A DNA stretch of 64,000 nucleotides, from contig NZ_VLLI01000013.1 in assembly GCF_007830615.1 (NCBI RefSeq), forward strand, positions 62,001 to 126,000. Direction: 5' to 3'. The DNA is from Mucilaginibacter frigoritolerans (GTDB lineage: Bacteria; Bacteroidota; Bacteroidia; Sphingobacteriales; Sphingobacteriaceae). The translations under genes and the position numbers were made by a program. The notes beneath the pieces were generated by a model. That model searched no databases. It saw only the letters and a list, made by a program, of their open reading frames with translations, and had not been told where the DNA came from. Position 1 is the stretch's first letter, and every line of letters begins with the position of its first letter. Positions 43,279-46,217 of the stretch are shown one piece after another.

Positions 43279-43503
43279 TTACATTTTTTTCATTTTAGCA
43301 GTATCAGTAGCTTTTTTAGAAGTATCAGCCTTTTTTGTAGTGTCAACTGTTTTCTTGGTAGTATCAGTCATTTTAGCTGAGTCCATTTTAGCTGAATCTG
43401 CTTTTGCTGAATCTGCGCTACCTGAAGCACCTTTACCTTTGCAAGCTGCGAAAGAAACCGCGATAACTAGAGCTAAAGCGCCCATTTTGAATGAATTTTT
43501 CAT
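43279..43503 (-). CDS. Small lipoprotein A with D-[S/T]-x-K repeats
   Basis: A 74-residue lipoprotein: signal peptide and lipobox (F-A-A-C, Cys21), then a low-complexity tail built of four-residue units D-S-A-K, D-T-T-K, D-T-S-K and D-T-A-K with near-balanced charge. The first 22 residues are identical to those of gene B at 43637, and the DNA coding them differs at one of about 63 positions. The tail is presumably extended and periplasmic. Its promoter matches that of the ECF sigma gene at 44540. No known family; a cell-envelope stress role is inferred. Confidence 0.75.
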   Translation of the reverse strand: MKNSFKMGALALVIAVSFAACKGKGASGSADSAKADSAKMDSAKMTDTTKKTVDTTKKADTSKKATDTAKMKKM

Positions 43504-43538
43504 GTTAATTTTCTTTTAAGTGATTAAATAATTTCCAT

Positions 43539-43567
43539 TTAATACCATAAAAAGCAAAAGGTAACCC
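43539..43567 (-). promoter_or_regulatory. Putative ECF promoter of lipoprotein gene A
   Basis: On the minus strand: GGGTTAC (43567-43561), 15 nt, GTATTAA (43545-43539), then 35 nt to the ATG. Identical blocks and spacing occur upstream of gene B and of the ECF sigma gene. Confidence 0.72.
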
Positions 43568-43601
43568 ATAATTTTTTAATAAAATTAAGATGTTACCTTT
43601 T
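43556..43601 (-). terminator. Long-loop hairpin after lipoprotein gene B, overlapping the gene A promoter
   Basis: AAAAGGTAAC (43556-43565) and GTTACCTTTT (43592-43601) form a perfect 10-bp stem with a 26-nt AT-rich loop. On the minus strand it is followed by GCTTTTT. One arm contains most of the -35-like block of gene A. It could terminate gene B, but the loop is long. Confidence 0.4.
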
Positions 43602-43636
43602 GTAAGTTAAAAACTAAATTAACAGAAAGACTAAGA

Positions 43637-43840
43637 TTATTTTTTCTTAGTAGTGTCTTTTTTAGTAGTGTCTTTTTTAGTTGAATCAACTTTAACAGTA
43701 GTATCTTTCTTTACAGAATCAACTTTAACTGAATCAGTTTTAACTGAATCTGTACCAGAAGTAGCTGATTTGCTTTTGCAAGCTGCGAAAGAAACTGCGA
43801 TAACTAGAGCTAAAGCGCCCATTTTGAATGAATTTTTCAT
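43637..43840 (-). CDS. Small lipoprotein B with D-[S/T]-x-K repeats
   Basis: A 67-residue paralogue of gene A: same signal peptide and lipobox (F-A-A-C), then repeats D-S-V-K, D-S-V-K, D-S-V-K-K, D-T-T-V-K, D-S-T-K-K and D-T-T-K-K to the end. The near-identity of the 5' part against a diverged tail suggests recent duplication with repeat turnover, or gene conversion. It has its own GGGTTAC-N15-GTATTAA promoter. Mature protein about 46 residues, probably unfolded and surface or periplasm located. Confidence 0.75.
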   Translation of the reverse strand: MKNSFKMGALALVIAVSFAACKSKSATSGTDSVKTDSVKVDSVKKDTTVKVDSTKKDTTKKDTTKKK

Positions 43841-43873
43841 TTTTATTCTTTTTAAGTTGTGAATGTTTAGTCT

Positions 43874-43902
43874 TTAATACTATAAAGTAAAAAAGGTAAC
43901 CC
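43874..43902 (-). promoter_or_regulatory. Putative ECF promoter of lipoprotein gene B
   Basis: On the minus strand: GGGTTAC (43902-43896), 15 nt, GTATTAA (43880-43874), then 33 nt to the ATG at 43840. Same layout as at gene A and at the sigma gene. Confidence 0.72.
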
Positions 43903-44014
43903 ATTGAATTGAAAAAAAAATATAAAATTTATTCTTTTGATGAAATTATAACAAAAATGCCTGGTAATCAGCAACTAAAATTCTACTAAAAGTCCACTAA
44001 AAATTCAAACTTTG

Positions 44015-44281
44015 TTATTTAGGTTCTTTTTTTACTGCTGATTTTTTAACATCTGTAGCTTTAGTTACTGTTTTGCTAACGGTATCGACTTTTGCTTTTG
44101 AAGTATCTGTAGCTGGTTTAACCGTATCGACCTTTACTGTGGTATCAGATTTTGTAACACTTGATGAGGATGAATCAACTTTTGCAGAATCGGCCGCCCC
44201 GCCTGATTTATTGCCTTTACAGGCCATAACAGATAGAGAAATGGCTAAGGCTAACAAGGGTAATTTAAATGCATTTTTCAT
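44015..44281 (-). CDS. Small lipoprotein C with D-[S/T]-x-K-type tail
   Basis: An 88-residue, more distant member of the same group: signal M-K-N-A-F-K-L-P-L-L-A-L with lipobox V-M-A-C (Cys21), a Ser-rich stretch, then D-T-T-V-K, D-T-V-K, D-T-S-K and D-V-K-K units. It is divergent from the ECF sigma gene. I do not find GGGTTAC-N15-GTATTAA upstream, so it may be controlled differently, possibly through the palindrome at 44339-44361. Confidence 0.72.
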   Translation of the reverse strand: MKNAFKLPLLALAISLSVMACKGNKSGGAADSAKVDSSSSSVTKSDTTVKVDTVKPATDTSKAKVDTVSKTVTKATDVKKSAVKKEPK

Positions 44282-44338
44282 AATATTATTTTTTTAAGAT
44301 GTTGATTATTAACAATTTTTACGGTGTTTGGTTTTTTG

Positions 44339-44361
44339 AAAACTATTCTATGAATAGTTTT
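44339..44361. promoter_or_regulatory. Palindrome between lipoprotein C and the ECF sigma gene
   Basis: AAAACTATTC (44339-44348), TAT, GAATAGTTTT (44352-44361): a perfect 10-bp inverted repeat in the divergent spacer, 57 nt upstream of gene C and 180 nt from the sigma gene. It could be an operator or a cruciform; no T-tract or stop codon suggests a terminator. Confidence 0.45.
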
Positions 44362-44507
44362 AATTAGGAACGGAATGTTTTATTTATAATATTTATGCAG
44401 AATATTATTTAACCCCGACAGATTAATTGAATTAAGCGGATGTATCAACCATCTAAAAGCCAGCATTCTAAAATTTATTTTGGTTTTAATTTTTTTTTAT
44501 GAAGAAT

Positions 44508-44536
44508 GGGTTACATTTTCGCATAAATTGTATTAA
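44508..44536 (+). promoter_or_regulatory. Putative autoregulated ECF promoter of the sigma gene
   Basis: GGGTTAC (44508-44514), 15 nt, GTATTAA (44530-44536). The sequence ATGGGTTAC-[A/C]-TTTT is shared with both lipoprotein promoters. The -10-like block ends 3 nt before the GTG start and contains the in-frame stop TAA at 44534-44536, so no longer protein is possible. Confidence 0.72.
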
Positions 44537-44539
44537 GTA

Positions 44540-45109
44540 GTGAGTAAAGAGCTAAGTAGTGGAATACCAACAGATAATGAAGTTATCCTTGGTATACTAA
44601 ATAATTCGGATAGCGTATTAAAGCGATTGTATGTTGCTTATTTTCCGATGGTATTACAACTAATTATTAATAATAACGGCAGTGCTGATGATGCTAAAGA
44701 TATTTATCAGGAAGCCATAATTGTTCTTTATAATAAGGTTAAGACCGGCGATTTTGAGTTAAGCAGCAAACTGAAAACATATATTTATTCTGTTTGCCGG
44801 AGGCTTTGGCTTAAAAGGCTTGCACAAATGAACCGCTATGGGGGCGATATTAAAGATTTTCAGGAGTATTTATCAGTAGATGATGAAACTGAAAAGAATA
44901 ATGAAAGGGATATTCAATTTAATAAAATGGGAAGCGCCCTTCAGTTATTAGGCGAACCTTGTAAAACTATTATTGAAGATTTTTATATAAACAACAGATC
45001 AATGCAGCAGATCTGTGAAGATTTTGGTTATACCAATGCGGATAATGCCAAAACTCAAAAATACAAATGCCTGCAAAGACTGAAAAAATTATTTTTTCAG
45101 CAAAATTGA
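44540..45109 (+). CDS. ECF-type RNA polymerase sigma factor
   Basis: A 189-residue sigma-70-family factor with only regions 2 and 4. Region 2 (about 25-100) has D-D-A-K-D-I-Y-Q-E-A-I-I-V-L-Y and L-K-T-Y-I-Y-S-V-C-R-R-L-W; region 4 (about 135-185) ends M-Q-Q-I-C-E-D-F-G-Y-T-N-A-D-N-A-K-T-Q-K-Y-K-C. The start is GTG at 44540: an in-frame stop lies 4 nt before it and no other start codon precedes conserved region 2. The next gene, 13 nt on, encodes the likely anti-sigma protein. The promoter matches those of two nearby lipoprotein genes, suggesting autoregulation. Confidence 0.9.
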   Translation: MSKELSSGIPTDNEVILGILNNSDSVLKRLYVAYFPMVLQLIINNNGSADDAKDIYQEAIIVLYNKVKTGDFELSSKLKTYIYSVCRRLWLKRLAQMNRYGGDIKDFQEYLSVDDETEKNNERDIQFNKMGSALQLLGEPCKTIIEDFYINNRSMQQICEDFGYTNADNAKTQKYKCLQRLKKLFFQQN

Positions 45110-45122
45110 GGAGATAAAAGCG

Positions 45123-46217
45123 ATGAGTGATAATCAACTTTTGGAACAAATTGAAAGGTATCTTAATGGCGAGATGACTAAGGACGAGCGTGCCCGTTTT
45201 GAAATTCTGCGCAATGAAGACACTAACCTTAACAAAAAGGTAGCAGAACACAGACATTTTGTTAACCTTATAAAGCAATATGGCGAGCGTTTAGAACTGG
45301 AAAAACGTTTAAATGCTTTGCATAGTGAAATTGATGTCCATTCCCTTGAAGAAGAGTTAATAATTCATCCATCATGGATCGTGAGCATGTGGCGCAATCA
45401 CCATTCTAAGATATCTGTAGCTGCTTCAATTGCTATTTTTGCGGTTTTGTGTACTTTGTTTTTCACAGGTTATTTAAATAACAAAGAACTAAATTATGCT
45501 CAACTGAAAGGCGACATTGCTAACACTAAGAAATCAATTAATGCATTACAATCTAAGGTTAACGGTCTTAACCATGCAGGCAAAGGAAGTGTTAATCCTG
45601 GTAATTTTAGGGGTACCGGTTTTGCTATTTCATCAAATGGATATATTGTTACAGATTATCATGTTGTAAAGGATGCTGATTCTGTTTACGTTCAAAGCTT
45701 TGATGGCAAATCATATCGTACTAAAGTAATATATTCTGAACCAGGCGATGATATAGCAGTATTACAAATAACCGATCCTTCATTTAAAACATTTGGTGCA
45801 ATTCCGTATGCCTTTAAAAAGGCCGATACAGACATTGGAGAAAATGTATTCACTATTGGATATCCGCGTGATGTAATAGTTTTGGGTCCGGGCTTTTTAA
45901 CTGCCAGTACTGGTTTCAGAGGCGACACTACCCAATATCAGGTATCAACCCCTGTTGATTTTGGAAACAGCGGTGGTCCATTATTAGATAGCAAGGGTAA
46001 TGTAATTGGTATAATAAATGCTAAAGAAACTCATGTTGAAGGTGCTGCTTTTGCAGTAAAATCAAGCTACTTATTAAAGACTATACAGGATATACCGGAT
46101 TCACTTAAGAGTGATCTGAATATCAATTCAAAAAATGTTTTGGCGGGATTAAATCGTGTTCAGCAAATTAAGAAAATGCAGAACTATGTATTTATGGTGA
46201 AAGTTTACAATCAGTAA
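45123..46217 (+). CDS. Membrane anti-sigma-like/trypsin-type (DegP-like) protease fusion
   Basis: A 364-residue protein in three parts. Residues 1-95 are cytoplasmic and helical (I-E-R-Y-L-N-G-E-M-T-K-D-E-R-A-R-F-E), like anti-sigma N-termini in Bacteroidota, without zinc cysteines. A single membrane helix spans about 97-117, followed by a short coiled coil (about 121-150). Residues 160-320 are an S1C trypsin fold with a complete triad: His180 in D-Y-H-V-V, Asp210 in G-D-D-I-A-V-L and Ser283 in G-N-S-G-G-P-L. No PDZ domain. Co-transcribed with the ECF sigma gene. The anti-sigma role is inferred from position and architecture. Confidence 0.85.
   Translation: MSDNQLLEQIERYLNGEMTKDERARFEILRNEDTNLNKKVAEHRHFVNLIKQYGERLELEKRLNALHSEIDVHSLEEELIIHPSWIVSMWRNHHSKISVAASIAIFAVLCTLFFTGYLNNKELNYAQLKGDIANTKKSINALQSKVNGLNHAGKGSVNPGNFRGTGFAISSNGYIVTDYHVVKDADSVYVQSFDGKSYRTKVIYSEPGDDIAVLQITDPSFKTFGAIPYAFKKADTDIGENVFTIGYPRDVIVLGPGFLTASTGFRGDTTQYQVSTPVDFGNSGGPLLDSKGNVIGIINAKETHVEGAAFAVKSSYLLKTIQDIPDSLKSDLNINSKNVLAGLNRVQQIKKMQNYVFMVKVYNQ

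Follow-up and report, generated by a model that had tools for sequence, protein, structure and literature searches.

In Escherichia coli, the extracytoplasmic function (ECF) sigma factor RpoE controls its own operon and is linked to the membrane anti-sigma factor RseA and the periplasmic S1C protease DegS. Within the Bacteroidota, the EcfO-Reo and Dma/Das (ECF21) systems of Bacteroides and Phocaeicola are described as operons that join an ECF sigma gene to a membrane anti-sigma gene (PMC13114119, PMC13088901, PMC9308784). In these reports EcfO-Reo is tied to outer-membrane stress, with surface lipoproteins (NigD) in its regulon, and Reo and Dma are described as crossing the periplasm and ending C-terminally in an outer-membrane beta-barrel. 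A recognised class I anti-sigma domain (ASDI) protein is given by one survey for the neighborhood of only 6% of Bacteroidetes ECF sigma factors (PMC7406223). The locus considered here belongs to Mucilaginibacter frigoritolerans (Sphingobacteriaceae) and lies in a stretch of 64,000 nucleotides (nt) of its genome (contig NZ_VLLI01000013.1, positions 62,001 to 126,000), hereafter the window, whose internal numbering is used throughout. It comprises, at 43279 to 46217, small repetitive lipoprotein genes, an ECF sigma gene and a gene that fuses a membrane anti-sigma-like part to an S1C protease, for which a self-contained sigma circuit had been proposed from the DNA letters alone (the original prediction). 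Taken together, the evidence makes it quite likely that this is an autoregulated ECF sigma envelope circuit with a membrane anti-sigma/protease fusion, the output of which would be mucin-like, probably glycosylated lipoproteins.

The window contains three copies of the exact sequence GGGTTAC-N15-GTATTAA, ahead of the genes for lipoprotein A, lipoprotein B and the ECF sigma factor, inside the coordinates given by the original prediction and with the identical spacing that it had described for three promoters. The gene for lipoprotein A (43279..43503, minus strand) is an open reading frame (ORF) of 74 amino acids (aa) with D-[S/T]-[AT] repeats in the mature part and a sub-cutoff match to NF050142 (PG1828_fam_lipo). 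Its site, GGGTTACC-TTTT..GTATTAA with an N15 spacer (43539..43567, minus strand; found by pattern search and conserved in relatives), lies 35 nt 5' of the ATG, and in relatives proteins resembling lipoprotein A sit behind the same site. The ORF for lipoprotein B (43637..43840, minus strand; 67 aa, NF050142 score below cutoff) has its sigma-type N15 site 33 nt 5' of the ATG (43874..43902, minus strand; pattern search). On the plus strand, the predicted self-promoter of the sigma gene, GGGTTACATTTT..GTATTAA, again N15, spans 44508..44536 and ends 3 nt 5' of the GTG start, as located by pattern search and conservation. The flanking identity that had also been claimed is real, with ATGGGTTAC-[A/C]-TTTT common to all three sites. 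These copies far exceed chance: the window expectation for the motif (N13-17) is 0.03, and three copies were reached in 0 of 100 shuffles. In the whole 5.66 Mb genome the exact N15 form is confined to the three window sites, and widening the spacer to N14-16 yields five exact sites, of which the two outside the window are both N16 (the reversed-pattern control gave 0). A relaxed scan of the same genome (one mismatch, N15 and N16) returned seven extra sites versus seven in controls, which makes these candidates only; three of the seven are intergenic, one of them ahead of a larger lipoprotein gene.

The motif was followed in two genome samples and a set of named loci. The family sample (f1, inferred to be Sphingobacteriaceae) holds 121 genomes, 109 with the fusion gene (one of these cut by a contig end), and 108 of the 109 loci were examined (L066-L095, L096-L173). 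The phylum sample holds 296 genomes, 21 with the fusion, eight of which are own-family. The 37 named loci come from Mucilaginibacter, Pedobacter, Sphingobacterium, Daejeonella, Albibacterium, Hymenobacter, Pontibacter, Chitinophagaceae and others, partly from the same genomes as the samples; 36 contain the sigma gene, and L260 is truncated by the start of its contig. The sigma gene lies directly 5' of the fusion gene in 107 of 108 family loci, the remaining one (L109) being cut by a contig end. Every sigma orthologue in these loci (107/107 family, 36/36 named) has a site with at most one mismatch at its start. At genome level the motif is present in 109/109 fusion-bearing versus 1/12 fusion-lacking family genomes (Fisher p = 9e-15), the lone positive among the latter having a single N14 site. 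In the phylum sample the corresponding figures are 18/21 versus 4/275 (Fisher p = 3e-22), or 10/13 versus 4/275 once the eight own-family genomes are removed (p = 3e-13). The sigma orthologue itself (E <= 2.3e-45; next match 2.7e-36) was found in exactly the 21 of 296 genomes that carry the fusion. Of the 13 phylum loci from other families, nine have an exact site close to the sigma gene and three (L178, L185, L187) a site with one mismatch, while at L186 the sole site, also with one mismatch, lies 127 nt upstream of the sigma gene. By these comparisons the putative circuit is conserved in Sphingobacteriaceae, Chitinophagaceae, Hymenobacter, Pontibacter and relatives. One named locus, L260, encodes a fusion protein (34% identity) on a contig labelled as a Bifidobacterium breve metagenome-assembled genome (MAG); the bin is probably mislabelled or contaminated.

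Sigma genes can be transcribed by other sigma factors, and the motif might accordingly belong to a more general one, with this sigma gene merely among its targets. Such an arrangement is very improbable, since the motif is absent from 11 of 12 family and 271 of 275 phylum genomes that lack the sigma/fusion pair, and since a general factor would be expected to have sites elsewhere, whereas the M. frigoritolerans genome has only five exact ones (N14-16).

The lipoprotein genes carry the argument for a promoter read by this sigma factor further. The 108 family loci contain 91 further exact sites, nine on the sigma strand and 82 pointing away; a lipoprotein ORF follows 80 of the 82 (in 70 loci), the other two being cut by the ends of the stretch examined. 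Within the stretches examined 38 of the 108 loci have no exact lipoprotein site, a first point that weighs against the proposed circuit. Of these 38, the 26 that make up the whole sample of genera g16, g4 and g15 were followed up; their genomes were searched with the lipoprotein-type pattern GGGTTACCTTT-N11/12-GTATTAA. Exactly one such site was found in each of 18 of the 26 genomes, 43-49 nt 5' of a repeat lipoprotein gene in 18/18, and these 18 unlinked genes are separated from the sigma operon by over 80 kb or sit on a different contig. In the other eight genomes the lipoprotein gene lies behind a site with one mismatch (seven) or an exact site with a different spacer (one); in genus g15 it is linked to the sigma gene, and G037 has a second repeat lipoprotein gene without a site of its own. 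That the site stays with a lipoprotein gene relocated far from the sigma gene is the strongest evidence for a promoter read by the sigma factor. Because the site stands ahead of the sigma/anti-sigma operon and of the lipoprotein genes, linked or not, and co-occurs with the sigma factor genome-wide, the comparison shows GGGTTAC-N15/16-GTATTAA to be the sigma factor's own predicted promoter, marking a putative conserved regulon. The search of related genomes suggested with the original prediction thus found the motif tracking both the sigma clade and the lipoprotein genes; it is present, not absent, upstream of the orthologous genes, and the core circuit survives.

Other observations count against the proposal alongside the 38 loci. 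In the window itself, the third lipoprotein-like gene, C (44015..44281, minus strand; ORF call, 88 aa, same protein type), is the one nearest to the sigma gene and has no site, the best match showing three mismatches at 104 nt upstream. Three of the 21 phylum fusion genomes (G126, G136, G232) lack an exact site; the sites near the sigma gene have one mismatch in G126 and G232, and in G136 the only one lies 127 nt upstream. Lipoprotein profile A3, searched in 22 family genomes, matched at E <= 5.5e-15 in all 10 sigma-bearing and at best at 2e-5 in the 12 sigma-lacking genomes. A claim that the latter have no such lipoproteins was nevertheless withdrawn, as the five weak A3 matches that were opened (L386-L390, in G070, G060, G010, G007 and G024) proved to be small lipoproteins with four or five D-S motifs, placing them in at least five of the 12 sigma-lacking genomes; the case for the regulon is not built on that claim. 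Judging from this distribution, this type of lipoprotein predates the circuit or extends beyond it, and its existence is independent of the sigma factor. No site was found upstream of the similar lipoproteins in these five genomes (best 4-6 mismatches), so the site goes with the sigma factor and not with the lipoprotein type. What stands of the self-contained circuit is its core of sigma factor, anti-sigma/protease fusion and lipoproteins; strict self-containment does not hold, given the unlinked lipoprotein and membrane-protein genes that also carry the site. Likewise, the idea of lipoproteins sharing one promoter sequence is correct for the two genes A and B and wrong for C.

ECF promoters have two conserved boxes spaced by 15-16 nt. 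Lipoprotein promoters of the present set read GGGTTACCTTTTtnnntttnngGTATTAA, with a distinct CCTTTT spacer and a median of 36 nt to the ATG (5-95% range 26-46), and sigma promoters read GGGTTACnATTtnnnnnaaAnnGTATTAA. Start-codon offsets were counted on distinct promoter regions, 106 of the 107 in the family and 42 others. The sigma start codon falls 0-3 nt past the -10 box in 102 of the 106 family promoters, where it is GTG in 94, TTG in 11 and ATG in one; in 39 of the other 42, which come from the phylum sample and the named loci, it lies 2-16 nt downstream. The overlap of the motif with the region just 5' of the sigma start codon would suit a sequence arising by chance or from coding constraints, or an operator bound by a repressor in place of a promoter. 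Either origin is extremely improbable: chance or coding origin is ruled out by the window, own-genome and co-occurrence statistics, and the fixed placement (a median of 36 nt before lipoprotein ATGs, 0-3 nt before the sigma start), the two conserved boxes with ECF-like 15-16 nt spacing and the CCTTTT spacer of the lipoprotein set speak for a promoter. Since transcription would start a few bases past the -10 box, the 5' end of the sigma mRNA would lie at or a few bases from the GTG or TTG codon, and the mRNA is probably leaderless or nearly so. Such a message may be weakly translated and could act as a brake on the positive loop. One survey gives leaderless genes for 1 of 37 Bacteroidetes/Chlorobi genomes (PMC3160421). 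Five loci of genus g14 (L127, L130, L149, L155, L158) carry another N16 site in tandem, about 100 nt upstream of the sigma start, from which a leadered mRNA may also be made.

The sigma gene (44540..45109, plus strand; 189 aa, GTG start, predicted leaderless mRNA) encodes an ECF sigma factor by its match to the sigma70-ECF model TIGR02937, which at 71.5 bits exceeds the cutoff of 42.9 and covers residues 27-183; Sigma70_r2 was the only sigma-domain match in the Pfam scan. Membership in the Bacteroides expansion sigma family TIGR02985 was rejected (42.4 bits against a cutoff of 126.4). An ECF group number for this sigma factor may already exist.

The second gene of the operon (45123..46217, plus strand; 364 aa) starts 13 nt past the end of the sigma gene at 45109, the gap originally noted, and its closest named match is a protein from a Mucilaginibacter MAG (77% identity). 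An AlphaFold2 model of the fusion, built on a 39-sequence alignment (predicted local distance difference test, pLDDT, 83; predicted template modelling score, pTM, 0.56), has three cytoplasmic helices, a membrane helix, a periplasmic helix, a low-confidence linker and a trypsin fold. The anti-sigma-like domain comprises residues 1-69 (helices 3-14, 20-32 and 34-69; 45123..45329), the predicted membrane helix residues 85-120 (45375..45482; invariant Ala100-Ala101) and the periplasmic helix, a possible coiled coil, residues 125-148 (45495..45566), with the linker at 150-159; all lie on the plus strand. The helical N-terminal bundle, encoded next to the sigma gene, gives the fusion the ASDI layout. 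Nine loci (L327-L335) have relatives of the sigma factor without the fusion, and the proteins encoded by the next gene were scanned for seven of them. The Pfam zf-HC2 cutoff was passed by those of L332, L333 and L335 and not by those of L331 and L327-L329. The fusion N-terminus aligns with a profile of the L332, L333, L335 and L331 proteins over 57 columns (hhalign probability 94.6, pairwise E 7e-8). Folded alone, it retrieved eight PDB chains by Foldseek, seven of them MucA, RsiW or RslA and each individually weak. The anti-sigma reading of the cytoplasmic part is supported in this way by the profile alignment to anti-sigmas next to related sigma factors, and weakly by fold. Set against it, Pfam zf-HC2 misses the window fusion (E 0.23) and the fold matches themselves are weak (Foldseek E 4-9, Z 5.3-6.1). 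The fusion N-terminus lacks the zinc ligands of zf-HC2, a lack shared by about 44% of class I anti-sigma domains in the survey cited above (PMC7406223). At three of the nine loci (L327-L329, sigma relatives of 36-38% identity) the next gene encodes a membrane protein whose N-terminus is similar and which gave no protease match.

The S1C assignment of the periplasmic part is borne out by a Trypsin_2 match (6e-24) and a fold closest to HtrA and to DegS minus PDZ. The protease domain lies at 45609..46088 on the plus strand, with the triad codons for His180 at 45660-45662, Asp210 at 45750-45752 and Ser283 at 45969-45971. The His-Asp-Ser triad is invariant in 121/121 fusions, which implies that protease activity is under selection. 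No PDZ was found in Pfam scans of the fusion, the chain ending about 40 residues past the protease, and membership in the DegS family fails on this missing C-terminal domain. It is strongly indicated that the second gene encodes a membrane anti-sigma factor with a predicted cytoplasmic helical domain, one membrane helix and a catalytically intact DegS-like periplasmic protease. Anti-sigma part and protease occur in one chain in 120 of the 121 aligned proteins; the open frame of the L177 fusion is without about the first 35 residues. In other Bacteroidota, five proteins (L190-L194) with signal-peptide- or lipoprotein-like starts have a C-terminal S1C domain 36-39% identical to that of the fusion. 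No sigma match was found in the stretches examined around them, and they are a possible source of the fusion protease domain.

The architecture suggests a mechanism. At rest the fusion would hold the sigma factor at the membrane. An envelope signal, perhaps the periplasmic stress of the original prediction, would activate the tethered protease, which would cut the linker of its own chain or of a neighboring subunit, as if RseA and DegS were combined in one chain, and a general site-2 protease would complete the cleavage and free the sigma factor. The freed sigma factor would transcribe its own operon, inhibitor included, closing the loop, together with the lipoprotein genes. The lipoproteins, once lipidated, probably O-glycosylated and exported, may thicken or buffer the outer membrane or periplasm. 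The protease may instead leave the fusion uncut and serve in periplasmic quality control or as a shape-changing sensor, with a change of conformation or the action of other proteases setting the sigma factor free. We hold this a substantial possibility, at rather less than an even chance: the triad is kept, yet sequence does not fix the substrate, and with no PDZ found a DegS-type activation by outer-membrane-protein C-termini is unavailable. The retention of one chain in 120 of 121 proteins is, however, hard to explain if cutting took place outside signalling, and the segment between helix and protease is of low confidence and poorly conserved, as a cleavage region could be. In its fullest form the proposal would be one-component regulated intramembrane proteolysis, with a self-cutting anti-sigma/site-1 protease, a sigma factor made from a leaderless mRNA and a dedicated O-glycosylated, mucin-like lipoprotein layer; as a whole this is tentative and somewhat doubtful.

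The lipoprotein repeats were compared in 113 distinct proteins, consisting of the 98 ORFs behind sites minus three, plus the 18 unlinked ones. The three were dropped by eye: L315 and L202 as spurious frames, and L060 as a lipoprotein without a repeat, 7 nt past a site. The unit D-[S/T]-x-K put forward in the original prediction did not hold, as the lysine is not conserved in relatives while D-[S/T]-[LIVTASM] is. The third residue after D-[S/T] is one of LIVTASM in 649 of 669 sites, and each lipoprotein has a median of six such motifs in about 47 mature residues. D-[S/T]-[LIVTASM] is reported as the Bacteroidota O-glycosylation motif (PMC12871550; PMC8550257), the sites of which are described as generally almost fully substituted (PMC12871550). 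By their sequences the circuit lipoproteins are probably densely O-glycosylated and mucin-like. Alternatively, the repeats might be low-complexity acidic or basic spacers, serving as an electrostatic or Lpp-like tether between outer membrane and cell wall, with the glycosylation match a by-product of composition. They are indeed short and fast-changing, lysine is common in the window lipoproteins, lineages differ in net charge and in C-terminal residues, and D-S-P repeats occur in one of them. We nevertheless judge the spacer explanation unlikely. Composition alone yields a mean of 119 motifs when the mature parts of the 98-protein set are shuffled (maximum 145 of 1000), against 547 observed. 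Lysine follows D-[S/T] in 1 of 669 sites, although it makes up about 11% of residues and follows S/T without a preceding D in 12% of cases. Net charge ranges from -14 to +8 across the 113 proteins, leaving no conserved electrostatic role, whereas the motif is conserved; and the similar lipoproteins from genomes lacking the sigma factor also keep D-S-[LIVTASM]. A lysine-based repeat, an Lpp-like C-terminal lysine and a fixed charge are all ruled out, as lysine, last residue and net charge each vary. Two observations on the lipoproteins count against the proposal: the D-S-P repeats of the L256 lipoprotein are disallowed by the glycosylation motif, and the known surface lipoprotein export signal (LES), given as C-X-K-(D/E)2 or S-(D/E)2 after the Cys (PMC5080379), was found in 0 of 113 lipoproteins.

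Beyond the lipoproteins, the two N16 sites elsewhere in the M. frigoritolerans genome lie 19-21 nt 5' of genes for small membrane proteins, L001 (G000:C6:25196) and L002 (G000:C11:9571), the two proteins being related (29% identity, pairwise E 2e-17). With L210 (G051) they make up a group of related 102-109 aa membrane proteins behind a sigma-type site, with no Pfam domain above cutoff, and are likely further targets in the organism's own genus. The larger lipoprotein of the relaxed scan, L383 (G000:C6:332651), has 297 aa and a one-mismatch N16 site 26 nt upstream. Other lineages have other genes, candidate targets as well, behind the site. In genus g21 these encode DUF4294-type proteins at three loci (L225 by Pfam; L047 and L055 by resemblance), and in two genomes of family f2, probably Chitinophagaceae, a 96-aa AMPK1_CBM (glycogen-binding-like) protein (L200 by Pfam; L204 by resemblance). 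Single cases also occur, among them a glyA-like gene, named by eye (L064).

The locus bears on two questions in the phylum, namely how species outside Bacteroides monitor their envelope and what purpose general O-glycosylation serves, the function of the latter system being described as mostly unknown (PMC12871550). If the proposal in its fullest form is true, it would provide an envelope stress response with a glycan brush as its output, and a regulated purpose for the phylum's general O-glycosylation system. The sigma group is phylogenetically wide and comes with a likely cognate anti-sigma factor of unusual build, an exact promoter that is short and portable, and a regulon readable from sequence. 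Among the literature matches listed, in which subscription journals were mostly absent, there was no account of the operon, the motif, an anti-sigma/S1C fusion or sigma-controlled glyco-lipoproteins.

Of the described systems, SigH PG1827 of Porphyromonas gingivalis, encoded beside the lipoprotein gene PG1828, offers a parallel. The three window lipoproteins show a weak likeness to the PG1828 family, seen through model NF050142 only, at 21-32 bits (30.6, 31.7 and 21.1); with the cutoff at 50, membership was rejected. The phylum sample shows no sigma orthologue at E <= 1e-45 outside the 21 of 296 fusion genomes. Substrates of the general O-glycosylation system of Bacteroidota are alike in bearing D-[S/T]-[LIVTASM] in the exported part, whereas here an array of about six motifs makes up most of the mature protein and would be under its own sigma factor. 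EcfO-Reo and Dma/Das likewise combine a Bacteroidota ECF sigma factor with a membrane anti-sigma factor in an operon. The fusion is nevertheless excluded from the dual-membrane anti-sigmas of the Dma/Reo type, as a protease of about 160-200 residues takes the place of the beta-barrel, and the lipoproteins differ as well. With RpoE/RseA/DegS the locus would share a self-controlling ECF sigma factor, a membrane anti-sigma factor and a DegS-type S1C protease. It differs from that system in that anti-sigma factor and protease form one polypeptide without a PDZ domain, and in that the predicted output consists of repetitive lipoproteins.

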